Source of the DNA: Chondrosia reniformis
Taxonomy: Eukaryota; Porifera; Demospongiae; Chondrillida; Chondrillidae
DNA length: 64,000 bases
Direction of reading: 5' to 3'
NCBI GenBank assembly: GCA_947172415.1
Contig: OX359194.1
Span: 3,286,001 to 3,350,000, forward strand
Shown here piece by piece: positions 4,900 through 51,200 of the stretch (position 1 is the stretch's first letter; each line of letters starts with the position of its first letter). A program made the translations under genes and the position numbers. A model generated the notes under the pieces. That model was not told the origin of the DNA. It did not search any database and was given only the letters and a program-made list of their open reading frames with translations.

Positions 4900-6156
4900 T
4901 TGTGGAGGAAGAGACAGTATAGGAACGTGGAACGTACGATCGTTGAAAGGAAAAGATGGTGAACTTATAGAGGAGATGAAGAAGTAAGGCCTCGGGGTGC
5001 TAAGAACCAGCGAGATTAAGTGGAAGGGGTGTGGCGCGAAGGAGATGGAAGATTGCTACGTAGTGTACTCAGGGGTCAGGGATGGCAGAGCCAGAACGGG
5101 TGTGACAGTGTTCCTGTTAGAAGAAATGAGCAGATGTGTAAAAAGCTGGCAGTGCCTGAGTGAGAGAATTGTGGTTGTGTGACTTAAGATTGGCAGAGAG
5201 TGGATCACCTATCTACAAGTGTATGGTCCGATGGATGATGACAGTAAAGAGGTGAAAGATGGTTTCTATAATGAGTTGCAGGGAGTGTTAGACAAGACAG
5301 CGAAGAGAGATGCTGTGGTATCATGGGCGATCTAAATGCAAGAGTGGGGAGAAATAAGCAGGTGTGGGGCAGTGTTTTGGGCAGTTATGAAGAAGCTATC
5401 ATAAATGACAATGGAGAGAGGTTGCTACAGTTTTGTGCAGTGAATGAGTTGCCTATCACCAACACCTGGTTCCAACATAAGGACATCCACAAGTACACTT
5501 GGGAATGTCCAGGGAGGCAGCTGAAGTCGCTCATTGACTACATCCTAGTGAGGAAGAACATCCAGCCTCTAGTCTGTGATGTCAAAGTGGTACGGGGTGC
5601 TGAGATTGGGAGTGACCACCACCGAGTTCTCATAAAGATGAGAAAGTGGAGAAAAGCTGAGGAACAAAGGACATCAAGCAGAAGGACAATGGTGAGAACA
5701 GAGAAGCTGAAGGTCAGTGAAGTAAGACTGAGATTCCAGGGGAGACTGCAGCTAAAAATGAAGAGGAGTGCAGAGGTGAACAGCGGAGAGGTAGAAAAGG
5801 TCTGGAGAGAATTTAAGGAAAGCATGATGAGTACAGTAATTGAGGTGTGTGGGACTAAGCAATGCGGGGACAGACAAAAGCGGACAGGATGGTGGAATGA
5901 GGAAGTGAGGACAACTGTGAAGAGGAAGAAGAGGGTCTACAAGAGGTGGCTGCAATTGAAGACAACAGGGGCAAAAGAAGAGTATACAGAGGCAAAGAAT
6001 GAAGCAAAGCGAGTAGTTAGAAAAGCGCACAATAAAGAGTGGAGTGAACTATATAGGCAAGGCACTACAAGAGGATTTCAACAGAAACCAGAAGAGATTC
6101 TGGACCACAGTGAAGGGGCAGAACAAGGGAAGCACAGATGGCAAAAAGGTGTGTGA
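4900..6156 (+). pseudogene. AP-type endonuclease region of the non-LTR element
   Basis: Pieces in several frames rebuild an endonuclease of the exonuclease III type: GTWNVRSLKGK near 4925, a segment at 4997-5182, then after stops the long frame 5323-6156 with MGDLNARVG, NTWFQHKDIHKYTWECPG, LIDYILVRKN and GSDHHRVLI. These correspond to the GDFNA, T..S/P, IDYI and SDH motifs that nick target DNA for reverse transcription. At least two stops or shifts before 5323 mean it is no longer translatable as one protein. The C-terminal part is basic linker leading to the reverse transcriptase. Confidence 0.8.
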
Positions 6157-6336
6157 AGAGAATGGTGATGCTATTGGAGAAGAGGAGAGGGTGGTTGAGA
6201 GATGGAAAGAGTATTTTGAAGGTTTATTGAAAGGAGACCGTCAGCAGCAGGATGACTATCCACAGCAGAGGGGAGTATCTCAGCAGGAGGAAATTGAAGA
6301 ACAAAGCGATATCATAGTAGAGGAGGTTGAAGCAGA

Positions 6337-7467
6337 ATGAAAAGTGGCAAGGCAGCAGGGTTGTGTGGCATAAATGCAGAGATGCTCAAAGCCGGGGATT
6401 CAGTAGTAGTAAAGTGGCTACACAGGATAGTCAACATAGCATGGGCCACAGGAGAGGTGCTGAAAGACTGGAAGAGAGCAGGGATAATTCCTCAGGTTAG
6501 CAAGGCAATGTGTTCAAATTACCGAGGCATCAGTTTACTCAGTGTCCCAGGCAAGGTGTATGCCAGAATAGTGGACAACAGGGTGAAGCAAAAGACAGAA
6601 GGGATGATACTAGAAGTGCAGGGAGGTTTCAGAAAGGGGCGGAGCTGCATAGATCAGATATTTACAGTCAGTCAACTCGGTGAGAAGGTGTTGGAGAAGG
6701 GGAAGCAAATGGCAGTGGCGTGTGTAGATCTGGAGAAAGCATATGATACAGTGAGAAGAGACAAATTATGGCAAGTGTTAGAGGAATATGGAATACATGG
6801 GAGGCTACTGGGAGCAGTTAGAGAATTCTACAAGAAGAGCGAGGCATGTGTAAAAATAGGAGAAAAGATGTCTAGATGGTTTCAAATAACAAGAGGAGTA
6901 AGACAAGGATGTGTGATGTCGCCGTGGCTCTTCAATGTATTTATGGACAAGATTGTAAGAGAGGCACAAGAGAGGTTTACTGAAGAAGTGCAGCTGGAAA
7001 CCACAATTGTGAAGTTGGTGCTGTTTACAGATGATGTGATGATGCTAGCGGAAAAGAGTGAGGACATGGAAAGAAATCTGACTGAGATGAAGAAGGCAAT
7101 GGACAACTGGGGCATGAAGATACACTGGGGAAAGACAAATGTGATGATGGTTAGTAGAACAGGGGATGATTGCAAAGTGAATGTTGATGGACAGGATATT
7201 GCACAAGTGGAGAAGATGAAGTACCTAGGAGTAATGCTGAGTGCAAGTGGAAGATGTGATGACGAAATTGAACAAAGAATTGGAGCAGCAGCAAATGTTG
7301 TTGGAGCAATGAGGAAGCAGGTGCTGGATAGAAGAGAGCTGAAGAAATCAACAAAACTGAGAGTGTACAATGCTATGGTTCTGCCCACACTGCTATATGG
7401 CTATGAAACGTGGACAATGCAGCAACGACATGTGAGCAGCCTGCAAGCCCTAGAAATGAGATACTAG
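6337..7467 (+). pseudogene. Reverse transcriptase of the non-LTR element
   Basis: An open frame of 376 codons covers the palm and thumb. Visible blocks are CSNYRGISLLSVPGKVYARI, VQGGFRKGRSCIDQIF, VACVDLEKAYDTV (catalytic Asp), RGVRQGCVMSPWLFN and LVLFTDDVMMLAE. The catalytic box reads FTDD in place of the usual F/Y-A-DD. KYLGVMLSASG, typical of the thumb, follows. The frame is separated from the endonuclease by shifts near 6150-6340 and decays after 7467 (NEDIYKEST and a VKRVFEEEA-like piece to about 7690). Confidence 0.85.
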
Positions 7468-7994: not shown

Positions 7995-8948
7995 CTTTAT
8001 TAGGGTGATTGAGTAATATATCTGGTGCACTTCTGAATGTATACTATGCCCCAAAACTCTGTAATTCTGCTGATCAGAGCTTCCTTTGTGGTAGGTTTAA
8101 CAACACGATGTAAATATTCCTTTAACACGTGCCACAGGTTCTCAATGGGATTTGCATCTGGGCATTCTTCCGGTGTTGGCCACCAATTGATGTTCGTGCC
8201 CTCAAAGCATTGTTTTGCCAAAGCAGAAGTATGCTTAGGATTGTTGTCTTGAACGAACCTGTGGCCATCTGGATACAATTCCTCAATCATAGTGAGGAGG
8301 GTTTTTTCAAGGATATTGACATATCCTCTTGCATTCATACAACCTTCAAAGAGACATAAGCCAGAGCGCCCACTTTTACTAATTGCAGCCCATACATAGA
8401 CTTTAATGGGATGCTTCAGTCTTGGTTTACATCTAGGTTTGTAGCCTGTCTTTGTACCACAAAATCTTCTGTGTGTCTCCAGTTGCACGGTTGTTCATCT
8501 GAATAAATACAGTTGAAGAAGCTGTCACCCAAGTTTTCTTTAGCCCATTGAAACGTTTAATTTTGTTCTGATCTCTGATCATCTGGCAGTAGGCACTGCC
8601 TCTGTAGGTCCATCCAAGGTCATGTCTACACTTGTTTATTGTGGTCTTTCCAAGGCCTATGTTGTTCTCCTTCAGTAATTTCTGCAGTTCCTTAACAGTG
8701 CTCTCATCATCTTCCTACATCTTGTCTTCAATTATCCTTTTGACTGCTTAGTTTATCTTGGTTTTCCTTCCAGCTCCCTCCTTTCTACTAATCAATCCTG
8801 TCTCTTGGTATTTCTTCAGCAAATAGTGGATTCCTTGACGCGTAGTATGTAAGCCCTCTTCATGTAATAATTTTTCGATTGTAGGTGCTTTGTGTCTTTG
8901 CTGAAGTGCTACTATTTGCATACGTTTATATTCAGAGTATTATGACAT
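7995..8948 (-). pseudogene. Tc1-type transposase of the outer element, decayed
   Basis: The C-terminal half is open (8000-8488). It contains VYVWAAISKSG, the second Asp in FVQDNNPKHTSA and the Glu in DANPIENLWHVLKEYL, again with 34 residues between them. Upstream, toward 8948, the N-terminus is recognisable in pieces (RMQIVALQQRHKAPTIEKLL, LGKTTINKCRHDLGWTYRGS, then TDEQPCNW in another frame) with at least three stops or frameshifts. Orientation and position relative to the BEN cargo match the inner element, confirming that both have the same plan. Confidence 0.85.
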
Positions 8949-10402: not shown

Positions 10403-11265
10403 TAACATGTGCAAACCACACCTAAAAACAAAATGGCCGCCATGAAATGATGCCACAATTAACCCGTATTTTCCCCGCTTCTATTAGATGTCAGTAGATC
10501 AAAAAAACTAATTACATTTCGGCCTATTTACTTTAATATTTGACTGATAATTTCCACATAACTCACTCACCTATGGAAAACAAAACGATTCATTCGGACA
10601 TTAAAAAAAGTCTTTAGTCAAAAACGCGGTCATAAAATTCGTAATTCTAGTGTAACCAGACTTCTAAGAAAGGTATCTAAATTTTCATTTTCATTACTGA
10701 GATGTGCCACTTTTAAGAGATTTTTTAAAGGAAAGATAAACAAATTCATGCACATATCAGTAACGTAAGAAGCTATTGCAAAGCACCTCAGTGAAAATTT
10801 AGTCTTACCTTAGATTAACAAGTAGTTCGAGTTTAAAAACTCGTGGGGCTGCCGCCCCCGAATTAACTCGAACTACTTGGCCGCATCGTTGGGATTTAAT
10901 ATATATATTCGTAATACTAACGATTGAGGAAGTGTCCTGAATTTTATAAATAACGATGGAAAAACTTCGTTAACTAAAGCTTCCTGAACGCCGCCATTTG
11001 CAAAAACGATGTATTGACGTATAAATTAAGTGTTACAATAGTTGCGTATGAACTTGTATTATACATATACCGACGTATAAAATAAGTGTTATAACAGTTG
11101 CATATGAACCCGTATTATATATATATATATCTTTCCGTAACATGAAGCCGTACAACGTAATCGGCATATGAAAACAATATAAGGGGCTGCCTGCGGCAGC
11201 CCCTAATAAAACCATAAAAGTTTGGTAGCGCTAAGTCTTCATTTACCTGACCGCATTTTAACCAA
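10403..11265 (+). repeat. Dispersed repeat R1, copy A (split by H1)
   Basis: It begins with ACATGTGCAAACCAC and AAAATGGC, passes TTAACCCGTATTT, then GAGATGTGCCACTTTTAAGA, ATGCACATATCAGTAACG and ends TTTGGTAGCGCTAAG. The same order of blocks occurs at 11978-12500. Element H1 interrupts copy A between CTTACCTTAGATTA and AATAAAACCAT. No coding content. Confidence 0.7.
10819..11206 (+). mobile_element. Hairpin-ended short element H1, copy 1
   Basis: The left end folds back on itself (AAGTAGTTCGAGTT pairs with AACTCGAACTACTT, enclosing GGGGCTGCCGCCCC). The right end is the palindrome GGGGCTGCCTGCGGCAGCCC followed by CTAA. The middle is AT-rich with repeated GCGTATGAAC and ACGTATAA motifs, and it has no coding capacity. 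It sits within repeat R1 with no clear target duplication. The features fit a non-autonomous rolling-circle (Helitron or Helentron-like) element better than a cut-and-paste MITE, but this is inference. Confidence 0.7.
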
Positions 11266-24175: not shown

Positions 24176-26880
24176 TTTTTTTACTAGAAACAGCGTTTAT
24201 TCGTCGAAAACGTCATAACCATGCCTATACTTCTGCGCATGCGCAAATTACCAAGTTACCTGCTTGTCAGATAGCTACACTTGAGTTTCCGATCAACTTG
24301 TTTACTTTTCAGTCCAAGTCCAGTGGAAGATGTAAGTTAAGAGATCGCTTAGCTAAGGGCTAAAGGTGAAGTATGGGGTTTTCAAACACAGCGCCTTTTA
24401 CCAGTACCAGAACAGCTTCTTTCTTTGTCTCCAGTTGCTCCTTCGCGTGCAGGCGAAATTCGAGCTATATTCGGAACCCCTCCTTTAGCAATTTGCTCTG
24501 CCACAAGCTACGAATCGGTAGTTCCTTCCTTAGACAATTATTCCATCCTTACACAGCCGCCAAGGGAATAAGATACGAAGGGGTGAGGGTCAATCGTTGC
24601 GCGAGTGAACATTTGACCAAAAATGCCCTTCCGTACCTTAGAGTAGGTTACTCAAGTTTGGCTTAATGTTAGAAATTATTGTTCTCTCCTTTGCTCTGCA
24701 ATTTACTTCGGTTTCTTTTGCATTATCTACTATTTGCTTCTGTTTCCTCTACAGGGCAATGATGCAGAAGCGCGATGAGCGGCAAGACTTTGGTGTAGCT
24801 ATGGTACCTCAGCGGCAAGACTTTGGTGTAGCTATGGTACCTAGGTCCTTGTCTGCTTCTCTGTCAAGCCCATTGTATGACTTGGGGTTACCGCTATTAA
24901 TCAACTTCGAAGACTGCGACCGTGACTCATCAACGAAATGCCCTTTACTGAGCAACTCCTTAAGGTACACTTTAAAGAACCTTGCGGATGATGCTAAAGT
25001 TAAGTTAGACTTTGAGGGCCATAAAGCGGAAGAAGTTGCCAAGAACATTGTGAGTCAATACTTAGCCAATGCTGACGTGACAGTGCAGTCAAACAAGGAG
25101 GTAGAAGAGTGGAAAACAATGAAAAGCTTTGCTGTCAAGGAAGCCCAACGACAAGATGTTTATGCTCGACATTGTAAAAATGAAGATGATGTTGTCTTGG
25201 TAGTTGAAATCCACTCAGGACCAGACGATTCACATTTCTACAAGACAGTGAAAAAAACAGCTTTTGCGCTATTGAGCCAGCTGCGCTATCTGCGACAGCA
25301 TTATGACATTAGCAAAGTAGTTGGATTTACTTTCCCTAAGAAAGATTACCCAGCAGTTGCAGTGAAAGTATCTGTGTCGCTGAAATTGTCTGTCGAGGGC
25401 ATTGGCTTTGTTTGTGAGAGGAATGCTCTCGAAATGGAAAAAGTAGGTGAGGAGGTTAGTGATGCAGTTCATGACATCAAACAGCTTCTCATACAACATA
25501 ATCCAGAACCTTTTCCGTGCTACCCTATCAAACTCACGCCAGGAGAAATCAGGAAGATTCAAGCCATTCTTAATTCTCAGAAAGATAAGGGTCGTTATAG
25601 ACAATTTCGAATCGATCAAGAGAAACGTTTAGGCCATGAGAATGAGGAATTGAAGCAGGTCTATTCAGGATCCTCACTTATCTTGAAGGGCAATAATAAA
25701 ACCTACAAACACATCTGCCATGAATCACTGTCCGAATTTTCTGTGATGAGTGATCTCTTTAGCATGGCTAAGAGTGACCAACTTGTGACGGCTATTGGCT
25801 ATTTTAGGGTAGGCATTGCATCGTTCTATGTGTTTCCAACGGTGTCACGACCACTAACATATAGAGAAGCCAAAGCCTGTCTTTTACCCCTATTGGAGGG
25901 TACGAAGCAAGCACTGGAAGAACTGCACCGTCTAGGCTTTGCACACCTTGATGTCCGTTTGGACAATATCTGCTTGAAGTTGAAAAATTCTGGAATGATG
26001 GTCGTACTCATTGATTTTGATTTTGTTCGAGACATAGACACTACATTGGAACAGAATAGTATGTCATATCTGGCTAAAGAAAGTGTAATGTACAAGATTC
26101 CAGAGTATAAAGAAAAATCTGTAAGCCAGCCTGTAGATAAGTTTGATTGGTGGCAGCTTGGTTTGATGGCAGCATATTGCCTAACAGTGCACAACGAAGA
26201 ACAGCGGCCAAGTTACCACGACTTTAAGATTCCTGAAGAATTCTATCAAGACGAGTTCTTCAAATGTGCAAAGAAGGGTGAGCCATCTCCGCCTCGGGAA
26301 TGTGAGAGGATTGCCAGATACTCTTCGCCTATTGGTTACTTAACTTAATCTGTTCTGCCTGAGCACAGTCATGTAATTACAAGAGAAACTAGCAGCTGAA
26401 CACAGTGTTCTAGTTGATCCATGAACTCAGGATTTCAATTCTCTTTAATTAACCTGTAAACTTGGTAAAAAGTATACTCTTTATTTTTCCTGATTGTATT
26501 GCATTGTGTTGAACCTATGAACTTGATGTACTTATATATATACTCTTTATTATAGTATTTTATATAATTATATCCATGCACTATTTGCATGACATTTTGT
26601 GCACATGAACTGTCCCATATCTTAATTGTGTTGGTGATAGTACGTGATAACTATAGTTTGTAACAAATGCATCCACATCTATATAAGCATTCAGTATTCT
26701 CTTGTAAATTCTTGCGTAGCAAGCATAGTTATAAAATTATATGTATATACATAACCATGGGCATGTACGTGCATGAGCCTTATACTTATATAATATGATC
26801 GGAAAATGAGTATGTTAAAAAGTATAAGATGATCAAAGTATATACTTATTTCACCTGCAGTTTAGTTGATGTTTCAATAA
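24176..26880 (+). repeat. Tandem duplication unit, copy 1
   Basis: Sequence from AACAGCGTTTATTCGTCG through the kinase-like gene and about 530 bp of 3' flank recurs at 27735-31110. Similarity resumes at 27345-27560 versus 31125-31310 after a non-LTR insertion in copy 1. The whole unit is about 3.4 kb before later insertions. Confidence 0.9.
24755..26348 (+). CDS. Kinase-like protein, tandem copy 1
   Basis: An atypical protein kinase-like protein. The open frame begins at 24666, but a strong polypyrimidine acceptor (CTCTACAG at 24747-24754) and a GTAAGT donor at 24332 suggest a 5' exon and a start at Met 24759, giving about 529 residues. If unspliced, the extra 31 residues form a hydrophobic leader. 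The N-terminus has an 11-residue tandem repeat (RQDFGVAMVPQ). The middle holds VVLVVEIHSGP with K-rich helices, reminiscent of the nuclease-like domains that precede kinases in Crinkler-type proteins. The C-terminus has HLDVRLDN (catalytic loop, about residues 425-432 counting from 24666), VVLIDFDF (DFD in place of DFG) and DWWQLGLMAAY (helix F). No clear glycine loop. Substrate unknown. Confidence 0.75.
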
Positions 26881-26974
26881 GTAAACTGTGAAACGAAAAA
26901 AAAAATGATGACTGACATTCTAAAGGAAAAAAGCAAAAACTCTATCAGTGCAATGAGTCAGGAACTAGTATATA
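26349..26974. other. 3' flank of kinase-like copy 1
   Basis: AT-rich and matching 30581-31110. It contains AATAAG/ATTATA-type signals but no convincing second gene. A short A-rich run (26895-26905) precedes the non-LTR fragment. Confidence 0.4.
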
Positions 26975-26979
26975 TTATT

Positions 26980-27011
<32 letters not shown>

Positions 27012-27345
27012 AGTGCATCATGTGCAAAGCACACTAGGGTGTTTGCCCCATGTAGCACTGTGCAGACAATAAATTAAATAATAAACATAAAAAATAGGTT
27101 AATTTCCACAAATCGCCATTTATTCAGTGACATCAGTACTATGTTTGTAGAATCTGTGATACCACATCTTCTCTAGTGCTCTTCCCACTCTTCCTTCCTT
27201 GCAGGCTCTATCTAGTATTATAGCACATTTCTTCTTTTCTCCCATCTCCTGGAATCCTTCCACTGTGTCCCCCATGGCTTGCAACAGCTCCCTCCTCTTC
27301 TCCACTAGTGACCCACAGCGCAGTAGGAAATGCAAACATGCAACA
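26975..27345 (-). pseudogene. Non-LTR retrotransposon 3' fragment
   Basis: An (ATT)n tract at 26977-27010 is the 3' tail, read on the minus strand as AAT repeats. Next comes GTGCTACATGGGGC, then a short coding end (LEKMWYHRFYK and FLLRCGSLVEKRRELLQAMG). It resembles the element at 37500-38672, which also ends in an AAT tract and KMWTARF. It is absent from copy 2 of the duplication, so it entered copy 1 afterwards. Confidence 0.7.
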
Positions 27346-27758
27346 ATATAGCAAACAACTATGGTGCTTGTACAGATTCTGATCAAATATATACATGTGA
27401 CCTAAAGTTGTGTTTATCGATCCAGTGACCGAATAACAGCTGACCCTGAGAAACCATATTTAACTTTGTATGTTTTTAGATCAATATTGTGACAATACAC
27501 TAGTACTGTGATGGTCTTGGGAACACAAGTTTTACGTTAATTCCATTTAATACAGTGGAGCACGGATATAACGAACTTCTAATTGTAGTAAATTAAATTT
27601 ATTTCGTTATAACCGAATTTCGTTATAAAAAAGATACGTTTTCAGGCACGCATCGTATCTGTACTCGTCAGGGTGAATTACGCGAGACTGGCCAATCAAA
27701 GCAAAGTACTAGGAGGCCATTTTTTAATTACTACTAACAGCGTTTTTTCGTCGTAAAC

Positions 27759-28463
27759 GGGAGTCTTTAAAACGCGGAATACGGAATACGGAATACGGAA
27801 TAGCGGAATAGCAAAACGCGGAATAACGGAATAACGAAAATGGCAGCCAACTAGTATGGCCGAATGGAAATTCGTTCATCGAGCTTAACGATCAATCAAC
27901 GTCGTCTTCGCTTCACGGAACGACTTAAAAACAGACGTTTACTCGCTATACCGACAGATACTCGTAGCGCATTGGCGAAACATAAAATAATAAGGTGACC
28001 GAAATACGCGTAATCGAGAAAATAAGATTTACCGATCAATCAACGTCTCTACCACAAATTTACCTCTATTGTTCCTATGGTTACATAATGTCTAAATAAT
28101 TAGTGTTTATTCCTAAACATGTATTACACATAGGTAATCTCTTACTGGATGCACCTTTCTGTAGCAGTATCAACACCTTTTTATATTATAGCCGGTGCAT
28201 ATTATTTTATCTTTAATAACGCGCATTTTGGTCACGATTCTTTCGTTGTCTTCCTTATTATTTAATGTTTAATAGCGCGTATTTTGGTCACGATTCGTTC
28301 GTTGTCAGCGTTCCGTGAAGCGAATACGACGCTGATTGATCTTTAAGCTCAATTTCCATTCGGCCATACTAGTTGGCTGCCATTTTCGTTATTCCGTTAT
28401 TCCGCGTTTTGCTATTCCGCTATTCCGTATTCCGTATTCCGTATTCCGCGTTTAAAGACTCCC
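27759..28463. mobile_element. Mutator-type foldback element, 705 bp
   Basis: Terminal inverted repeats of about 160 bp start GGGAGTCTTTAAA and end TTTAAAGACTCCC. A 9 bp target duplication, GTCGTAAAC, lies at 27750-27758 and 28464-28472. Copy 1 of the duplication has the uninterrupted site (TTCGTCGAAAACGTCATAACC at 24200-24220). Long repeats plus a 9 bp duplication fit MULE-type elements. The arms contain repeated CGGAATA units, and the centre has two direct copies of TTTTGGTCACGATTC. There is no protein. Confidence 0.9.
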
Positions 28464-28986
28464 GTCGTAAACGTCATAACCACGCCTACTACTGCGCATG
28501 CGCAAAAATTACCAAGTTACCTGCTTGCCAGATACACTCGAGTTTCCGATCAACCTGTTTACTTTTCAGTCCAAGTGCAGTAGAAGATGTAAGTTAAGAA
28601 TTCGCTTAGCTAAGGGCTAAGGTGAAGTATGGGGTTTTAAACACAGCGCCTTTTACCAGTACAAGACAGAACAGCTTCTTTCTTTGTCTCCAGTTGCTAT
28701 ATTCGGAACCCCTCCTTTAGCAGTTTGCTCTGCCACAAGCTACGAATCGGTAGTTCCTTCCTTAGGCTATTATCCCATCCTTACACAGCCGCCAAGGGAA
28801 TAAGATACGAAGGGGTGAGGGTCAATCGTTGCGCGAGTGAACATTTGACCAAAAATGCCCTTTCGTACCTTAGAGTAGGTTACTCAAGTTTGGCTTAATG
28901 TTAGAAATTATTGTTCTCTCCTTTGCTCTGCAATTTACTTCGGTTTCTTTTGCATTATCTACTATTTGCTTCTGTTTCCTCTACAG

Positions 28987-30580
28987 GGCAATGATGCAGA
29001 AGCGCGATGAGCGGCAAGACTTTGGTGTAGCTATGGTACCTCAGCGGCAAGACTTTGGTGTAGCTATGGTACCTAGGTCCTTGTCTGCTTCTCTGTCAAG
29101 CCCATTGTATGACTTGGGGTTACCGCTATTAATCAACTTCGAAGACTGCGACCGTGACTCATCAACGAAATGCCCTTTACTGAGCAACTCCTTAAGGTAC
29201 ACTTTAAAGAACCTTGCGGATGATGCTAAAGTTAAGTTAGACTTTGAGGGCCATAAAGCGGAAGAAGTTGCCAAGAGCATTGTGAGTCAATACTTAGCCA
29301 ATGCTGACGTGACAGTGCAGTCAAACAAGGAGGTAGAAGAGTGGAAAACAATGAAAAGCTTTGCTGTCAAGGAAGCCCAACGACCAGATGTTTATGCTCG
29401 ACATTGTAAAAATGATGGTGATGTTGTCCTGGTAGTTGAAATCCACTCAGGACCAGGTGATTCACATTTCTACAATACAGTGAAAAAAACAGCTTTTGCG
29501 CTATTGAGCCAGCTGCGCTATCTGCGACAGCATTATGACATTAGCAAAGTAGTTGGATTTACTTTCCCTAAGAATGATCACCCAGCAGTTGCAGTGAAAG
29601 TATCTGTGTCGCTGAAATTGTCTGTCGAGGGCATTGGCTTTGTTTGTGAGAGGAATGCTCTCGAAATGGAAAAAGTAAGTAAGGAGGTTAGTGATGCAGT
29701 TCATGACATCAAACAGCTTCTCATACAACCTATTCCTGAACCTTTTCCGTGCTACCCTATCAGACTCATGCCAGAAGAAATCAGGAAGATTGAACACATT
29801 CTTAATTCACAGAAAGATAATATTCGTTATACACAATTTCGAGTCGATCAACAGGAAGGTTTAGGCCATGAGAATGAGGAATTGAAGCAGGTCTATTCAG
29901 GATCCTCACTTATCTTGAAGGGCAATAATAAAACCTACAAACACCTCTGCCATGAATCACTGTGCGATGTTCGTGTGATGAGTGATCTCTTTAGCATGGC
30001 TAAGAGTGACCAACTTGTGACGGCTATTGGCTATTTTAGGTTAGGCATTGCATCGTTCTATGTGTTTCCAACGGTGTTACGACCACTAACCTATAAAGAA
30101 GCCAAAGCCTGTCTTTTACCCCTATTGGAGGGTACGAAGCAAGCACTGGAAGAACTGCACCGTCTAGGCTGTGCACACCTTGATGTCCGTTTGGACAATA
30201 TCTGCTTGGAGTTGAAAAATTCTGGAATGATGGTCGTACTCATTGATTTTGATTTTGTTCGAGACAGAGGCACTTCATTGGAACAGAATAAAATGTCATA
30301 TCTGGCTAAAGAAAGTGTAATGTACAAGATTCCAGAGTATAAAGAAAAATCTGTAAGCCAGCCTGTAGATAAGTTTGATTGGTGGCAGCTTGGTTTGATG
30401 GCAGCATATTGCCTAACAGTGCACAACGAAGAACAGCGGCCAAGTTACCACGAGTTTCAGATTCCTGAAGAATTCTATCAAGACGAGTTCTTCAAATGTG
30501 CCAAGAATGGTGAGCCATCTCCGCCTAAGGAATGTGAGAGGATTGCCAGATACTCTTCACCTATTGGTTACTTAACTTAA
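28987..30580 (+). CDS. Kinase-like protein, tandem copy 2
   Basis: Paralogue of the gene at 24755-26348, with the same layout and the same alternatives for the start (first ATG of the long frame 28898; preferred Met at 28991 after the CTCTACAG acceptor; GTAAGT donor at about 28588 in a 5' exon). All kinase-like motifs are kept: HLDVRLDN, LIDFDFV and DWWQLGL. By hand count it differs from copy 1 by about 42 residues. Most cluster between residues 270 and 325 (for example KLTPGEIRKIQAIL against RLMPEEIRKIEHIL) and near 352-362, while silent differences number about six. This bias suggests that both genes are used and are diverging under selection. Confidence 0.75.
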
Positions 30581-31310
30581 TCTGTTCTGCCTGAGCACAG
30601 TCATGTAATTACAAGAGAAACTAGCAGCTGAACACAGTGTTCTAGTTGATCCATGAACTCAGGATTTCAATTCTCTTTATTTAACCTGTAAACTTGATAA
30701 AAAGTATACTCTTTATTTTTCCTGATTGTATTGCATTGTGTTGAACCTATGAACTTGATGTACTTATATATATACTCTTTATTATAGTATTTTATATAAT
30801 TATATCCATGCACTATTTGCATGACATTTTGTGCACATGAACTGTCCTCCGATATCTTAATTGTGTTGGTGATAGTATGTGATGACCATAGTTTGTAACA
30901 AATGCATCCACATCTATAAGCATTCAGTATTCTCTTGTAAATTCTCGTGTAGCAAGCATAGTTATAAAATTATATGTATATACATAACCATGGGCATGTA
31001 CGTGGATGAGCCTGTCTCTATGTACTTATGATTGGAAAATGAGTATGTTAAAAAGTATAAGATAAGCGAAGTATATATACTTATTTCGCCTGCAGTTTAG
31101 TTGAAACGTATAGCTATCATTTTATTATATAGCAAACATGGCGTTTGTACAGATTCTGATCAAATACATGTGACCTAAAGTTGTGTTCATCGATCCAGTG
31201 ATCATGACCAAATATTAGCTGATATTGAGAAACCATATCTTTGAATATTGTGACAATACACTAGTACTGTAATGGTCTTGGGAACACACGTTTTACGTTA
31301 ATTCCCTTTA

Positions 31311-33256
31311 ATATTTATGTAATATGGTATATAAATTTGTTACTTTTGAGCAGACATGGTGATCAGGATGGTCATTGTGAAGAAGATGCTATAATATTGG
31401 TATTGTATCATGTAGTACCATGCAATGTGCAATCGTAGAAATAGAATCTGGTAGGTCTTATCCAATTTTGTCACAGCTTAGAGCTATCAATGTATTAATG
31501 GTTTTTGAAAAAAGCCCTGATAGCATATATATATATAAGCTGGTTTGGATTGCATGCACATTTCAATATGATCATGATTGCATAAATATGGATGTGGCAA
31601 CTGGCCATGAATATATAGTCAGTTTGTACTGATCATGTGTTGGGTTGTATATATTTTAAGATAATATGTATGAGTACCGTATACGAGTATATACCTCATG
31701 AGTACATGAGTCAACCGTACATATATTATATGTACGGTTCCTTGCCTTGCTATGACATGCATGGATGATTGGTATATTTTGTAATCACTTGTATTCCCCA
31801 TTTTTGTAATACATTACACTTATATTTGCTCAAAAGTATCTTAGTTATATATTTTTGTTAAGTTAGTACGTGAATAATGTGATGTTGAGCAAGACTACTA
31901 TATAACATAATAAAAAGCTTCAGCAAACTACAGAACCTACTAAACATTGTTCATACTTATCAAAACGTTCACTAATGAAATGGTGTCCAGCTTGATCTGA
32001 TTAGTACAGCAGCTTTTCAACAACTGATACAGAAAACTGTGTATTTGCACTGCCCTCATAGTCCACCTGGCTGGGAGGAAGGGCATCACCTGAAGGTGCA
32101 TGAGACTCTCAGTTGGAGGTGTGGAAACTTTGCAGAAGTGAACATAATGATTTCATGCCCAGCTGAAACATTTGCTGGTGGGTGTGGCTTTAAGAGTGCG
32201 CTCAGACGTCCACTCTACAGGGTATTTAAGGGAATTTTAAAGTCATGAACAAAAAGACTAGTAACGGTATCAGTGGCAAACAAATAACATATGCTGTGGA
32301 TAGAAGTGATAAAGAAATACAGTTTAATTATTATAGGTCAACAGAGGCCAAACGCAGCAAAGCCAAATATATGTACCTTATTATATCATACATGCAGATA
32401 TCTATTGTATATATATAAGACCATCCACTTATAAAAATCTTATCACCTCTCATTAAAAAATGCCTTAACAATTGTATCATAGAGTACGGTAGTACTCTAT
32501 AAGTAGGGATGGCCGAAAAAAAACATGGCCGCCCTATTCAATGTATTATCAATTAACACCTCATAAATCAACAACGTTCAGATTTTCGGTTGCATTCGTG
32601 TGTTTGCAGTCGTTTTTGCATGCTTTTCTAAACGCCAAAACATGTTACGATGCTCTACAACCTTCGCAAAGTGGTTAAACCGAAATAGGCCAAATTCTGC
32701 AATTCCTCATTTTTTCTTCTTCTTCTTCTTCTTCTTCTTCTTCTTCTTCTTCTTTTTTCAAATGAGCTAGCGCTAACATGCGAACTTACGCAGGTACATA
32801 CAAATACGAAATCGTCATGAATGTTTCCGAACTAGGGAATAGGCTACCCTAGATTTCAACGCGCTCCAACCGAAGCGTGTTACTTTTGAAAGTGCCAAAT
32901 TTAGGGCCTCTTTGAACGCCATTTTTTAATTAAGTTTCAAATTCTCTGTATATAAAATAAGTAACCCGAATGAGTAATATTTGTGGTACTGCCGTTACCC
33001 GCGATCGAATTTCTTAGTCGCTTTGCAGGGCCTATATACAGTCGTATTCTTAACGATTATGGACCCTTTAATATCCTAAACTGAATGTTAAAGAACGGTA
33101 GAAAACATCTTATCAAATTTGGGATCTTTTCGGACGCCATTTTTTAATTTAGAGCTCTCTATTATATCGTCTATTCTGCTACTTTATTTCGAGTTTTCGC
33201 CAAGAAAACTTTCAAAACAAATATTAACAAGAAAAAAGGAGCAATACAAGTTAAAT
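31311..33256. other. Non-coding interval
   Basis: No recognisable gene. It contains an AAGTAGGGATGG motif at 32502-32513 shared with the palindrome below and a (CTT)n tract at 32708-32755. Confidence 0.35.
32708..32755 (+). repeat. (CTT)n microsatellite
   Basis: About fourteen uninterrupted TTC triplets in a T-rich context. Confidence 0.95.
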
Positions 33257-33614
33257 AAAAACATTCAAAAATGAAGTTAAAAGTAGGGATGGCACTATAA
33301 CAGTGATTGGCACATCTAGAAAAAGTAACAAAACAAGAAAGTGATCATATGGTAAGGCTAACATTGCAGAAGTGGCATACTGAAACTTAACTATACACAT
33401 CACTTCTATGTTTGGGCGCATCAATCCCTACTTCTAGTATATCCATGATGCGCCCAAACATAGAAGTGATGTGTATAGTTAAGTTTCAGTATGCCACTTC
33501 TGCAATGTTAGCCTTACCATATGATCACTTTCTTGTTTTGTTACTTTTTCTAGATGTGCCAATCACTGTTATAGTGCCATCCCTACTTTTAACTTCATTT
33601 TTGAATGTTTTTTA
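33257..33614. repeat. Near-perfect long palindrome
   Basis: Two arms of about 168 bp read as exact complements (AAGTAGGGATGGCAC outward, GGGCGCATCA next to the centre) around a 22 base spacer. I compared the inner 145 bases of each arm and found no mismatch; only the outermost few bases differ (TTAAATAAAA against TTATATAAAAA). Such identity implies a recent origin. No coding content. Confidence 0.95.
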
Positions 33615-34807
33615 TATAATTTAGTAAACCTTTGCATAGCTCAGGGAAATTAGGATATATAGTCATGACTGTATAATGATGTCAACAGAAATTTTAATCT
33701 TCATGATCAGCTGGTTCCCAAGCGAACATTCTGTATATAATTTACAGCCGTACATGGGCCTTCCAACACTAATAATAATGTACTACATATATACATGTTA
33801 CTTACCCCTGCTAGTAAGCCATATTCAGTAACCTCCAAATAGTAGGCAGTTTGTTTGAAATTTCTAAAAGCTATTCCAGAATTCACATCACACGGAATTT
33901 CCCCTAATGACTCGGGTATGTGCACGTGTAGCTTTACAGTGTTAAGTGTGAAAGGTAGGAGAGTTTAAACACGAGCTAGCTACGGTATTTTGCGAATGTG
34001 AAGGTGGTATGTATGAATTAAATCACATTATTTATTCTAGGAATCATCTTTAAACTAAAACTGCATAAATTTAATGCAGCATGAATTACTTGATTTACGT
34101 TATGCAGATAATTATATGGAAATGCATATAAGCTAAAGATTCATTTTGTGTAAAAACAAAATCCATGCATGTACTGTTGATTTTTACACTGTCAATCCTT
34201 TTTACATTATAAAGTGACCATGTTTTTTGTATCATCCCTAGCTATTAAGAGAGTATATACTGAATACCTTAAGCTTCTGATAGCTATATAAGTACACACA
34301 CACATGTACATATACCGTAATCCTCCCATGCTCCATTGCAATCCACTTGACCAGAAGGATTGATTTGTAGGGTTTTCCCATACGAACAGGAAGTGAGAAA
34401 AACCACAGTTCCATGAGATAGCACCCACTACATATGCAAAGTATGGTAAGCTTGATATAGATAGATATACAGATTGCATGCTTAAAAATGAAGTATGTAA
34501 TACATGTATGTATATGATCGATGACACTATGTACACATGTACTATATAGGTGTATATATAGATCCTGCGTGACTCACATAAGAAAGGGATTTCACACTTA
34601 TTGGGTAATGAAGTATTTTCTCTACAAATAAAGATGACAAGGAGGGTATATATATAGTCACAAATTACTAACTGTAGACTTTGCCTTAGAATGTACCTCT
34701 AGAACCCAAACAGAACACACAGTCATATTCAAAGACTTTTAAAATGCTCCAAATGAGGTAATAGGCACACACGAGCCAAACCGTTTTTCTAGTTAAGTTA
34801 TATATAT
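33615..34807. other. Non-coding interval
   Basis: No gene recognised in about 1.2 kb of AT-rich sequence. Confidence 0.3.
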
Positions 34808-34913
34808 AAAACATGGTAGTCTCGCGTAGCCCAGACCGCTTCTCGCCTCCATATTTATATTATGACGTCACACGGTCGGCGAGATAGGGTCTGGTCAATT
34901 GCCTATACCATTT

Positions 34914-35239
34914 TTGTTCTGGCCCGAAGTGTTCCGGAAGTGGTAGGCGATGATAAACGCACTTCTAACGCATACGCTCTGATCAATCCTAACCGATGTC
35001 AGAGGGCTAATGCAAACTGTAATGCTCCCTTTTCGGGTTAATAAACGATCAAAAATAATCGGTAGTGCTGCGTAGATGACGGATTTGCCATAACCCGTCG
35101 GCAGAGAAACAAAGGTATCCTTCCCGCTTACAAAGGCCTTAAAGGTTTCGATTTGCTTGTCCTTAAAGCTCCCAACACCAAACAATTTAGCAACGTCCAC
35201 AAGAATTCCCGTAAGATCACTAGATTTAGAAGTACTCAT
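34914..35239 (-). pseudogene. RecQ-like helicase N-terminal fragment
   Basis: From Met at 35239 the frame encodes LFGVGSFKDKQIETFKAF, then VSLPTGYGKSVIYAALP. These are motif 0 (the FK..Q..A/T glutamine) and motif I (GYGKS, the ATP-binding loop) of RecQ-family helicases. TVCISPLTSVRIDQ follows, matching the motif Ia region. The frame then runs into the terminal repeat and stops. DEAH box and later motifs are missing, so it cannot be an active helicase. The source gene is not in the window. Confidence 0.8.
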
Positions 35240-35364
35240 CTCGTACGTAGATCATATAGGACGATTTGCGGAGTTCACGTTACATACGCGTATCTCGTAT
35301 GAATATAATTATTTCCATGGTAACTGCATATTTAATGAGCCCCCAACTTCCGGGGGCCAGAACA

Positions 35365-35797
35365 ACAAGTATTTCGAGTTTAAAAACTCGTGGGGCTGCC
35401 GCCCCCCGAATCAACTCGAACTACTTGGCCGTATCGTTGGCATTTAATATATATATTCGTAATACTAACGATTGAAGACGCTTAAGTGTCCTGAACACTA
35501 TAAATAGCGACAGAAAAGCTTCGTTAACTAAAGCTTCCTGAACGCCGCCATTTGCAAAACGATGTATTGATGTATAAATTAAGTATTATAAAGTATTATA
35601 ATAGTTGCGTATATATGAACCTGTATTAAATATATATCGACGTATAAATAAAGTGTTATAACAGTTGCGTATGAACCCGTATTATATATATAGATATATA
35701 TATATATATCTATATATATATCTTTCCGTAACATGAAGCCGTACAACGTAATCGGCAAATGAAAACAATATAAGGGGCTGCCTGCGGCAGCCCCTAA
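35365..35797 (+). mobile_element. Hairpin-ended short element H1, copy 2
   Basis: Same left foldback (ACAAGTATTTCGAG start) and right palindrome as copy 1. It lies within the Mutator-type element at 34817-35895 and abuts that element's right terminal repeat exactly, so the Mutator-type element either carried it along or was hit by it later. Confidence 0.75.
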
Positions 35798-35960
35798 AAA
35801 TGGTATAGGCAATTGACCAGACCCTATCTCGGCGACCGTGTGACGTCATAATATAAATATGGAGGCGAGATAGCGGTCTGGGCTACGCGAGACTAAAAAC
35901 ATGGATACATACACCCATAATGGATATGTACAAACATGGATGAATGTGTACATAAATATA

Positions 35961-38929: not shown

Positions 38930-39100
38930 GTATATATAATACGGCTTCATACGCAACTATTATAACACTTATTTTATACGTCGATGTCCTCAATCGTTAG
39001 TATTACGAATATATATATTAAATACCAACGATGCGGCCAAGTAGTTCGAGTTAATTTGGGGGGCAGCAGCCCCACGAGTTTTTAAACTCGAAATACTTGT
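38930..39100 (-). mobile_element. H1 copy 3, partial
   Basis: Reverse orientation. It keeps the foldback end (CTCGAAATACTTGT at 39087-39100) and part of the middle, but lacks the GGGGCTGCCTGCGG palindrome end, so it is truncated. Confidence 0.7.
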
Positions 39101-40407
39101 TTGATTTCCTTTTTTAATTTCTATGAAATGAAAATACAGGACACCCAGGTAGACCAGCTATTTGCAGAGCTGGTCTTCCTGTCTAAATATCATTATAAGT
39201 AGCTAAGCTAATAACCAATGGAGTTATGCCAACCATGCAGCGGAATAATCATCTTAGCTGGGGTACCAAAATCCCCTATTAGAAGGGCAACCAGTGATTG
39301 TACCCCAGCCATCCAAGATGAGCCTTTTCATCATGTGAGTGCTCAGTCTTGCCTAGACAGTAGCTACCATCCACCTTCATGTATTACTGAAACCACAAGT
39401 GTTTCACTTACATGTACTAGGCTTATAGGGTGAAGGCAGTCATCCAAATTCACCACCAAAGCAATATATATACCTTAGCTAATTAACTAGCTACTTATTG
39501 AAAATGTTGCAGAAACAGCTGTCTGTTGTTGTTTGATGATTTTCCTACTTGGAGGGTGGAATTCTGTCACTGGATGTCAGTGTATAGAACCTTGGTCCTC
39601 CAGCCAAGGTAGGAGATTGCAGTCCCTTGGCTGGTAACAGATTTGATGCAATCTTGTAAGCTTCCATTTTAAGGGTGATGTAATAGGGGAATTCCAAATC
39701 GATGCTGATTCATCAGTTTTTTTTTCGAGAAGAAAGCCTTGAGGTAAGCCACTTCGTTCATCGTTAGATCTTAAGATGCAACTCAAATGGTAGTTGTAGT
39801 TCTTGTGGGCCTTTGTAAATTTAGTGTTTTTCGGTGTGTATTCTGTACTTATCGATGATCCTAGATATAACGTGGGCCTTATAGATTGCCATTGGAATAT
39901 AAGCGTACGTGGTGATAATTTTCCCTACTGACTAGTGTGTTTAATTTAAAAAAAGTCCTGTGAGACGATATGCACCTTTTGGAAGGTTATTCTATTCTAC
40001 ATCTAAGTTATACGTATGTATGAGTTGAAAGTTTAGCACTTAAAATTAGTCACTTTGTATTCATAAATCATACTACCCATAATAGACTTTTGAAATATGG
40101 TGTTCTGGATTGTTCATAAGCAGCTAAATGGGGTTACTCGGCATCAGATGGTTTAGTGTACTACTGCATTGGCCCAGTGGAGAATATTAAGAAAAAAAGA
40201 AAAGTCTACAGGACCTGTATCTTTACCCACAGCCCACACTGGGTTTAATTCCCAATAGGCTTTTTACAGAGTAGGCATAGCATGTAGGAAAATGGTGTAT
40301 TAGATTTTTCATTTGTCTTACCGTTTACTTTCATTGGGTATATGAGTTTGCATAACATGTGGAGCACTGCTTACAGGAAAATAACTGATCACAAGTGACA
40401 TTTTAAG
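39101..40407. other. Upstream region of the 4-exon gene
   Basis: No coding sequence recognised. GCTGGGGTACC and its complement at 39255-39315 form a loose foldback. A SINE-like stretch at about 40200-40320 (GGGTTTAATTCCCA, then TAGGCATAGCATGTAGG and AAAATGGTGTATTAGA) recurs, worn, at 47310-47380 (minus) and 59010-59100. Confidence 0.4.
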
Positions 40408-48200: not shown

Positions 48201-51200
48201 CCAAAGTTCAAAGATGAACCATCTCAAAGAGATTATATCTATTAAAGTTACATTTATCTACGTAAATCTGCCAAGTCTTGACAAGGATGTTGGTAAAACA
48301 TATAATCAAACTTAACAAGCTAGTCGTAATATGTCAATTGGTCTTAGAGTACTTGCCTTAGCAACTGTATACTTCTTGTATTGTGATGGAAATACATTCA
48401 TTATGTAGATACGTACGTACATACATTGGTAGGTCACTAGTACCCTTCTATATATGTACGTACGTAGCTGTATGTCAAGCTCATTTTTCCATTGTCTTAC
48501 TTCACTATGGGACACAAGAGGTAGCTATAGACATTTTCTGTCAATGAATTTGCTAAACACTTTTCCTCAGGGATGATGTTGCTGTACAGCCTCCATTGCT
48601 AAGTAGTACTCCTCATATTCATATAACAGCTATAGCAAGACAAAAATCTATCAAGGAAGAAATAGCAGATGTTAGTGTAAGTTTCTTTTGGCTGTATATA
48701 AATAAAGTCATGATATGAAATCTAGCTAGACTGTATTGAAGCTGCTGTAACACGTACTTTCATGTTTGTTTCCATGACCACAATATCAAAGATATAGAAA
48801 CCACAACTATTTCATATAGAGTGGAACGTAAACGCTCAGCAACGTGTATTCCAATGGTGTACTTCAGGACAGTATTCCTATCATTTTTTGGACTGAGGCT
48901 TTGGGTTTTACCAGTTTGTACGTATGAAACTGGGTAGAACGTTCCAAGCCTTCGAATGTGCATTGTGTTAATTGAAAGAGCTGTAGGTAGCGTGCGAAGG
49001 ATTCTCTTGGCCTACTTCGTTACCACGGGTCTCAAGAGATGCGTATCATTTGGTCTCTTTAAACGTACGTCGCGAACGCGTATGCGCTCCCGAGTGTTAC
49101 CAGATTAGGACACTGATTTGGTCTACTCTTACACGAATACGCTCCCGAGTGTTACAAGATTAGGACACTGATTTGGTCTACTCTTACACGAATACGCTCC
49201 CGAGTGTTACAAGATTAGGACACTGATTTGGTCTATTCTAACACGAATACGCTCCCGAGTAGATAGATAGATAGATAGATATTTTTATTTGTCATCAGGA
49301 GTGCTGCATCCACATCATCGGTGGATTTTCATGCAGGTCCTGGATCAAGTACAATGCAAAAAGATAGAGAGTGAATGCATAATGTTAATGGGGAAATATA
49401 GTAAGTAGATTTAAAGAGTTTAAATGGATATAGATTGAGTTCATGGAATTAATTCACATTTGTACAGTTCAAGTTGGCTAGGGCTCTTCTGAATGATTTT
49501 GCATCTCTAATGTCTTTGATAGCAGATGGCAGACAGTTAAAATGATATGCCCCTTGATATTCAAATGTTGAACGATAGGCATTGGTTAGTGGTCGCTTCA
49601 AGTGTAGATTGTTCTTCCTGCGTGTTGAGGGGTAGTTTACATTATGAACCACATTTGTGACAAACTTTGCAGTCAGAAAAGCAGGTGCTCTGTTTGTCAG
49701 GCAGCAATGTACTTTACCTAACATAGCTAGATGTCTTCTATGGTGTAGGGTAGTCCACCCTAACATTTGTCGGAGTGGGTGGCTTCTTGTTCTAGGTGGT
49801 TTCTGAAGAATCATGCGCATGGCATAATTCTGAATCCTCTCAACCCTGTCACTGAGAGTGGTGCCACAAGAGTGCCAAACAACAGAACAATAGTCAAGAT
49901 GTGGAAGCACAATTGCTAGATAGAGCAGTTTCCTTATGGAGCATGGCAAATAGTGACCTGCTCTTCTAATGAGGGCTAGCTTGGCCAGACATTTCTTCCG
50001 TACACTGTCTATATGCAACTGCCAATTTAGATCTCTGTCAATGTGGACACCAAGATATTTCACTGATACTGGTTTAGTTAATACCTGATCTCCGGATCTG
50101 ACTTGTACATCATCTGACTTCCTCTTATTGCACTTCCTACTAAGCACCATAAGCTGGGTCTTAGCAATATTCATTTTTAGCCCATTTTCCATTATCCACT
50201 TTGCTACCTGACTAAGGTCTTCTTCCAATCTGACACTAACACATTTAGCATCACTATCTGAGGTGTATATTGTTATATCATCAGCATAAAGATTTACTAT
50301 GCATTTCTCCACAGCATTGGGCAGGTCATTAATAAACAATATGAATAGAAGTGGGCCCAAGATGGAGCCTTGTGGGACTCCTCTCGTAAGAGTGCGCCAC
50401 TCTGATTTCACTCCTTCCATTACTACTCTGTACTTCCTGCCTTGCAAGTAGTTTGTGAACCAGGCTAGTTCTCTACCACAGACTCCGTATGCATTAATTT
50501 TCTTCAGAAGCATTATATGATCAATTGAGTCAAATGCTTTACTTAGGTCTATCATGATAGTCCCTACGATATCACCTTTATCCAGTGAAGTCCTCCAGTC
50601 ATCAACAGTTTTCAATAAGACATCCTGCGTGGAGTGATTTGGTCGGAAACCAGCCTGGACCTCATTTATTAGTTCGTGTGCCTCAAGATAGTCATACAAC
50701 TGTTGATGTATCAGGGATTCAAATACCTTAGCTAGTACTGGGATCACAGAAACTGGACGATAGTTTGTAACATCATGTAGAGTGTTACAAGATTAGGACA
50801 CTGATTTGGTCTACTCTAACACGAATAGCTTAATTGCGCGCAAAAGACGATATGTAATTGTCAGATGTGGGAAAATGCTCAGGACAGCTAGAATCGTGCC
50901 TTAATACTCTAAATTGTATTAAAGTATGTACGTAGCCGTACATGTTATATACATACGTACGTGCGTATAACTTTGATTGAATGTTGCTTATGGTTTGTTT
51001 TAAGAAAGGTTTGTAATTTTCTAAACTGCAATGTTTTAAATGTAGCTCTACTAGGCTAACTATTCCACTATTATTTTGAAATGCCAATTAGTTCATGCGA
51101 CTGGCAGGCAGAGAATCTATTAAAATTACAGTTACAGTTTTTAATGTATGCAATTTGTTAAAGGTTTTAACATAGGCTGGAACTCCTTCGGATAGAGTAA

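Follow-up and report, generated by a model that had tools for sequence, protein, structure and literature searches.

The window analysed here, a stretch of 64,000 bases with no N in its sequence, is part of chromosome 6 in Chondrosia reniformis, the kidney sponge (contig C6, positions 3,286,001-3,350,000). It carries a tandem pair of genes, here called A and B, that belong to a multicopy family combining a protein-kinase-like domain with a suspected nuclease-like domain. The genome assembly contains 117,379,552 bases in 15 contigs; the portion of the odChoReni1 genome report drawn on here gives 117.37 Mb in 14 chromosomes plus the mitochondrion (PMC12181767). The main coding exons of A (24759-26348; 529 codons plus a stop codon) and of B (28991-30580) are both on the forward strand, each within one copy of a tandem-duplicated unit (24202-26869, + and 28463-31104, +; 94.8% identity).

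A first-pass annotation, made from the sequence alone, had described the pair as two 560-codon frames. Both frames are indeed open over 1683 nucleotides (24666-26348 in A and 28898-30580 in B), but their first 31 residues are most likely non-coding and intronic. A C/T-rich tract followed by ACAG is found just upstream of the conserved open part in 34 of 40 family members, and in A a conserved 3' splice acceptor, TTCCTCTACAG, stands at the end of a probable intron end (24666-24754, +; 28898-28986 in B). Since the acceptor is conserved and two related copies, C and D, lack an ATG upstream of their acceptor-like tract, the exon of A most likely starts at 24755 with its ATG at 24759 (the exon of B probably starts at 28987), and the apparent hydrophobic N-terminus of A would therefore be intron. 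Two perfect 33-nucleotide repeats coding for RQDFGVAMVP are located at 24778-24842 (+) in A and at 29010-29074 in B, and copy D has four imperfect repeats. By eye, several genes on contigs C3 and C7 (L013 and others) may begin with ATGGG, an intron of about 51 bases separating it from the main exon.

Family searches were run with A and one chromosome-3 member as queries, and the resulting counts are lower bounds. The close paralogues of the pair are C (chromosome 6, 5.30 Mb, 85%) and D (chromosome 5, 82%). Arrays were found on C3 (0.81-0.87 Mb) and C7 (0.018-0.044, 0.665-0.687 and 0.91-1.35 Mb), together with scattered copies, while a more distant clade occurs on C1, C5 and C6. The fetched loci contained 53 open-frame pieces, of which 40 were stop-free and were aligned; the other 13, being short, cut by the locus boundary or partly broken, were excluded, and some broken copies are present in the family. 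Among the papers listed by the literature searches, judged by their titles and the openings of their abstracts, no description of this sponge family was found.

Selection within and across copy groups

The two 1683-base frames of A and B differ at 54 positions. The first-pass annotation had estimated by hand about 42 residue replacements, about 48 nonsynonymous bases and about 6 silent differences, and a recount of both frames returned the same figures (48 changed bases spread over 42 replacement codons, plus 6 silent codons). Its per-site ratio of about 2.5 was too high, as the ratio of replacement to silent divergence (dN/dS, or omega) is 1.70 by NG86 and 1.89-2.06 by GY94 maximum likelihood (ML) under three frequency models, and a value of 1 was not rejected (p 0.06-0.10). 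The comparison with flanking non-coding DNA that it had proposed likewise gives no support to selection in this pair: the flanks differ at 35/1008 positions (3.5%) and replacement sites at 46.5/1256 (dN 3.5%), with no elevation (Fisher p 0.82), and the difference between silent sites (7.5/340) and flanks was not significant (p 0.28). The excess of replacements therefore reflects a low silent count. Moreover, the A-B ratio by NG86 is the highest among 19 disjoint closest family pairs (range 0.36-1.70). Given these p values, a dN equal to the flanks and the extreme rank of the pair, the pairwise omega was rejected as proof of selection, and the pair alone is suggestive of adaptive divergence and no more.

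The replacements are nevertheless clustered, as had been proposed, with 14 of them inside 50 codons (P = 0.004 over codons 127-560). They are densest in the linker (14), and 7 fall in the core of the N-terminal domain; the cluster itself covers residues 278-321 (25497-25628, +), between the two domains. No difference between A and B touches the catalytic-loop or the DFG-like motif, in agreement with the earlier remark that the kinase motifs were untouched.

The signal was clearer across the family. Six groups were defined, and each alignment column was scored by the number of other groups that vary there, while changes were counted in disjoint close pairs of the tested group, replacement and silent changes being taken from the same columns. 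The main test used pairs at most 12% divergent, with gaps masked (17 of 18 disjoint pairs, one above 12% being left out). Columns variable in at least three other groups were called hot; this is the case for 87 of the 464 scored residues. For columns varying in 0, 1, 2, 3, 4 and 5 other groups, omega was 0.33, 0.79, 1.61, 1.94, 2.55 and 8.1, respectively. Across these classes dN went from 0.014 to 0.165 and dS was falling (0.044, 0.039, 0.034, 0.035, 0.028 and 0.020), the last two dS classes holding only 7 and 1 silent changes. When a pooled dS of 0.039 is used for every class (our own arithmetic), the values become about 0.4, 0.8, 1.4, 1.7, 1.9 and 4.2.

Joint ML over the 17 pairs gave an omega of 2.43 for hot columns (likelihood ratio test (LRT) statistic 21.3, p = 4e-6), 0.49 for cold columns and 0.92 for all columns. 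Taken singly, three groups had a significant hot-column omega: A-D (5.89, p = 0.003), C3 (2.41, p = 0.019) and C7a (2.68, p = 0.014). The estimate remained at 1.77-2.46 with 5- or 8-codon gap masking, with divergent pairs dropped, with A-D and C1 dropped or with kappa at 1; it was 2.13-2.34 with all 18 pairs and 2.01 in a first, unmasked version. Pooled family pairs hold about 214 replacement and 33 silent changes in hot columns. In the 16 pairs of the flank set, hot-column dN is 2.1 times as high as flank divergence (198/2784 against 460/13788, Fisher; the former was summed by hand from the pair list, with pairs matched to the flank set by locus). Of the A-B changes that fall in hot columns, 14 are replacements and none is silent (one-sided p 0.013-0.052, depending on kappa), and 12 of the 34 scored replacement codons fall in hot columns, which is above expectation (P = 0.014).

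These sites were defined independently of the group under test and have a dN/dS above 1, and we consider it very probable that the same positions have been under recurrent diversifying selection across independent copy groups. The adaptive divergence claimed by the first-pass annotation thus stands at the family level, where the signal is graded and dS does not rise, and not for A and B alone; the addition of paralogues that it had suggested, with hot columns picked from other groups, is what brought this out.

It should be noted that this claim is not based on site models. For A-D, model M0 gave an omega of 1.19, not different from 1, and the M1a/M2a and M8a/M8 comparisons each gave an LRT statistic of 26.4. 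Four other arrays had M2a statistics of 125, 91, 46 and 42, with site classes at omega 4.2-6.3 (9 of the 10 C3 members were taken and the C1 group was left out). Such models take the silent rate to be the same throughout, and some hot segments show raised silent differences. When a null lacking positive selection but having 20-codon rate blocks (gamma shape 1) was simulated, 6 of 100 runs gave a statistic of at least 26.3; with the blocks left out, 0 of 100 did so. The four-copy site models were therefore rejected as proof, and the results from the other arrays carry the same weakness.

Domain architecture and location of the hot positions

By profile, the C-terminal half of these proteins is a protein kinase. 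In A, the kinase-like domain extends over residues ~334-545 (25665-26300, +). The Pfam Pkinase profile scores A at 33.6 bits, above the cut-off of 31.7, and B at 30.1, just below it, and matches 27 of the 40 members at E <=0.1. Columns invariant in all 40 members include E181, K234, H427, D429, N434 and D450 (A numbering), and K348 is kept in at least 90% of members. We take D429 and N434 to be the catalytic-loop Asp and Asn, D450 the DFG Asp and K348 the beta3 Lys. In A-D, the catalytic-loop Lys is replaced by Arg (HLDVRLDN) and the DFG motif is DFD.

The N-terminal domain of A (residues 95-280; 24948-25505, +) is predicted to have a PD-(D/E)XK-like topology, the residues concerned being D164, E181, residue 183 and K234. 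The domain of B (29180-29737, +) was modelled alone and reached a predicted local distance difference test score (pLDDT) of 86.9 and a predicted template modelling score (pTM) of 0.87. PD-(D/E)XK nucleases have an alpha-beta-beta-beta-alpha-beta core, with an Asp at strand 2 and the (D/E)XK in strand 3. The modelled order is alpha, beta, beta, beta, alpha, beta, followed by two strands and a helix, with D164 just before strand 2 and E181 within strand 3. The top 50 structural matches include MGME1, lambda exonuclease, RecE and Bse634I, as well as Cas4-like and PD-(D/E)XK phage proteins. From this model we suspect that the domain is PD-(D/E)XK-like and perhaps a nuclease. One replacement absent from the first-pass annotation falls on its motif: residue 163 (codon 25152-25154), the Pro of the 'PD' that is nearly invariant across the family (90% or more), is Gln in A, the sole such copy among A-D.

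Relatives outside the family were not recovered by the searches made for them. The domain model of the N-terminal part drew on 37 of the 40 members, and the profile of the domain had no match among solved structures up to E 5; scans of viral contigs gave 34 and 12 pattern matches and a scan of prokaryote genomes 145, with 0 confirmed in each case; and a Foldseek search with the full-length model returned nothing significant.

Hot positions were counted by residue span, some residues within the spans being unscored, and the kinase element names (beta3, alphaC, alphaE) were placed on the spans from motifs. The densest segment family-wide is residues 453-467, after the DFG-like motif (26022-26066, +), where 9 of 15 residues are hot. 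The beta3-alphaC region (350-372) has 10 of 23, the linker (278-333) 12 of 56, the C-terminus 12 of 49 and residues 60-159 have 19 of 100. The cold regions are the stretch running from alphaE to DFG, catalytic loop included (3/48), the helix region after the post-DFG segment (2/44) and the core of the N-terminal domain (6/86). Taken alone, region 453-475 reached an omega of 2.16 (p = 0.02) over 16 pairs not drawn from A-D. The first-pass annotation had seen in the clustered replacements a binding surface; the location by motif fits this proposal (post-DFG, beta3-alphaC and C-terminal part), but the kinase model is too poor for judging exposure.

Locus history and other elements of the window

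A and B show no difference over 413 bases between 24631 and 25045. The identical tract (24632-25044, +; 28864-29276 in B) is, on sequence evidence, the product of recent gene conversion, because copy C differs from both genes at 25/371 positions in codons 1-126, the A-B flanks differ by 3.5% and codons 127-560 by 4.1%. The near upstream flank of A is 98% identical to C, 89% to D and 88% to B. Further upstream of A, a 3.4-kb stretch shows 117/3381 differences from the corresponding part of the C locus, which there sits about 8.6 kb further out. The downstream flank of B differs from C at 57/1322 positions over about 1.3 kb, 23 of the 57 differences lying within one 96-base block that is maybe misaligned. 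Since the A-upstream and B-downstream flanks match the C locus, one ancestral locus most likely gave rise to the C locus and the A-B locus, the latter being tandem-duplicated afterwards. Informative sites over 24202-26640 support AB|CD at 42 positions, AC|BD at 7 and AD|BC at 1; in the coding exon, our own count was 35, 4 and 1, respectively.

When polarised by C and D, the A-B differences comprise 22 replacement and 3 silent changes on the A lineage and 15 and 2 on the B lineage, with 12 left unassigned. Most polarised changes in the 278-321 cluster fall on the A lineage. A DNA search of the primary assembly with 25400-26348 matched copies A-D only, and therefore no donor for this cluster is present there. 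Conversion from another paralogue, which the first-pass annotation had named as a possible source of the cluster, does not explain it as far as the known copies of the primary assembly go.

Near copy D lies a minisatellite coding for an NKSPHQR heptad repeat (L012:278-835). Elsewhere in the window, a repeat of about 1.15 kb (32472-33622) looks like a young mobile element; it holds a perfect 167-bp hairpin (33257-33612) and occurs at no fewer than 40 other places in the genome with 93-99% identity (40 of 2560 candidates being scored). One dispersed repeat is present in four whole or partial copies in both orientations (10855-11209, 35360-35817, 38986-39102 and 61836-62273), some of them containing the short palindrome GGGGCTGCCTGCGGCAGCCCC. 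By eye, the open frames at 5323-7467, 49449-50747, 2295-3311 and 8000-8488 resemble LINE reverse transcriptases and Tc1/mariner transposases, and that at 34895-35239 (-) resembles the start of a RecQ-like helicase.

Alternatives and proposed function

Taken as a whole, our reading is that of a family of kinase and nuclease-like fusion proteins, probably conflict effectors, under recurrent diversifying selection, and we give it a probability of about 0.6. Several observations weigh against it. On the structural side, the Lys expected at position 183 from the (D/E)XK motif is replaced by His, the C1/C5/C6 clade having Asn there. Foldseek found no significant match for the N-terminal domain in PDB (best E 0.031, yeast exopolyphosphatase and MGME1) or in BFVD (best E 0.0037, an unnamed protein), and unrelated folds such as alarmone synthetases are also among its structural matches. 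It matches no Pfam family above the cut-off and likewise none in NCBIfam, and the full-length model is of poor quality in its kinase part. On the side of selection, three groups had a hot-column omega that was non-significant alone (C7b 2.06, p = 0.12; C7c 1.54, p = 0.38; C1 1.62, p = 0.51), and any exchange of tracts between arrays could make the groups less than fully independent. Pooled dS over 16 family pairs is 0.050 against 0.033 in the immediate flanks, a 1.5-fold excess (p = 2e-7), which could reflect higher mutation in gene bodies, constraint on the flanks, or a greater age of the coding segments than of the DNA beside them, through exchange or balanced alleles. Finally, whole-gene ML omega is 0.72-1.24 across groups, never significantly different from 1, and that of the A-B pair is not significantly above 1.

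The last two results are those expected of relaxed constraint in a young redundant family, in which loop replacements would be neutral and the A-B excess would come from chance and the choice of an extreme pair; the broken copies and a pooled dN of 0.036 against 0.033 in the flanks (p = 0.14) fit as well. Neutrality, however, caps omega at 1, whereas independently picked columns reach 1.6-8 with equal or lower dS, and dN in hot columns is twice the flank divergence. Relaxed constraint is thus disfavoured for the hot columns, and we regard it as unlikely overall. Clusters could also arise by exchange or conversion of segments that diverged long ago, or from balanced alleles of long standing, with selection secondary. 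The 413-base identical tract agrees with this, as do an upstream flank of A that is closer to C (98%) than to B (88%), an A-C silent divergence of 8.4% (0.084) against 3.5% (0.035) in the 3.4 kb upstream (p = 1e-4), and silent differences raised in 350-400 and 453-475 between A/B and C and D (small counts, 2-6). Exchange would move silent and replacement changes alike, though, and cannot yield 14:0 or about 214:33 in hot columns; in addition, 35 of 40 informative coding-exon sites and 42 of 50 over 24202-26640 support AB|CD, and the cluster of A has no donor in the primary assembly. We therefore judge this explanation rather improbable.

The diversity might instead be the product itself, serving self/non-self or cell-cell recognition within the sponge and not defence against pathogens. 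Recognition loci show the same signature of diversifying arrays, and arrays with diversifying sites are what is seen here. Yet both domains look like intracellular enzymes, and the sole obvious hydrophobic stretch, as judged without a signal-peptide or membrane predictor, is in the probably intronic part, which leaves recognition a small share of the likelihood. That A and B are two haplotypes set in tandem by the assembly is very improbable. The portion of the genome report used here gives 69% as the primary k-mer completeness, which points to high heterozygosity, and mentions that haplotypic duplications were removed in curation; it also describes a HiFi assembly with a consensus quality value (QV) of 69.8 (PMC12181767). 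The window is free of N, the flanks upstream of A and downstream of B have counterparts at the copy-C locus, the other two flanks extending less far, and the family-level signal is independent of the A-B pair.

In the diversifying-selection reading, the family has grown by repeated tandem and dispersed duplication, with gene conversion between A and B. Each protein joins an N-terminal PD-(D/E)XK nuclease-like domain to a C-terminal kinase-like domain that keeps the catalytic-loop Asp and Asn and the DFG Asp. The hot positions would be exposed contact sites, the catalytic loop and nuclease-like core being conserved, and the protein may act as an intracellular effector in conflict or immunity. 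The kinase, contacted by pathogen inhibitors, decoys or substrates, might gate or accompany the nucleic-acid-directed domain, and new copies and replaced contact residues would allow the host to evade its antagonists, as has been suggested for vertebrate PKR. A conflict function of the family, taken separately, is possible, with the odds somewhat against it.

Three known systems invite comparison. About one-sixth of Crinkler/RHS (CR, CRN) C-termini consist of a restriction-endonuclease-superfamily domain and a protein kinase, according to the part of the CR review drawn on here; CR proteins also occur in free-living eukaryotes and are proposed to be conflict proteins, the supposed role of the kinase in the restriction endonuclease-kinase class being to regulate the nuclease (PMC5289972). 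This class has the same two kinds of domain as suspected in the sponge family; the sponge nuclease motif deviates, and no significant sequence or structural link is shown, no CRN sequence having been compared. The Crinkler header PF20147 had 0 matches in the sponge genome and also 0 in control genomes, so this search is uninformative. In vertebrate PKR, as far as the consulted portion of one study describes, the kinase-domain surface is positively selected under viral pseudosubstrates while catalysis is kept, the windows studied being helices alphaD and alphaG, the glycine-rich loop and the activation loop (PMC11556786). The analogy is one of pattern: PKR has dsRNA-binding domains and a known substrate and antagonists, whereas the sponge family is multicopy and has a nuclease-like domain. 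The TRADD-N proteins of Amphimedon, an example of the lineage-specific expansion of conflict domains in sessile marine animals, are in the part of their description used here large sponge families likewise proposed for immunity or cell death (PMC8195603), with domains that differ from those of the Chondrosia family.

The analysis illustrates that dN/dS from a single pair can mislead and that a test across arrays recovers a real signal; to our knowledge, site-level evidence for arms races in gene families of non-bilaterian animals is rare. In its boldest form, which we put forward tentatively and think unlikely to hold in full, the family would be an undescribed innate-immune system of the sponge, in which dozens of nuclease-like proteins gated by their kinases diversify through tandem duplication, conversion and positive selection on the regulatory and substrate-facing kinase surface, and thus a multicopy invertebrate counterpart of the PKR race. 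One genome offers the selected positions, catalytic residues that are conserved and natural variants by the dozen, so that hypotheses on partner binding and on nuclease and kinase activity become directly testable in this family.

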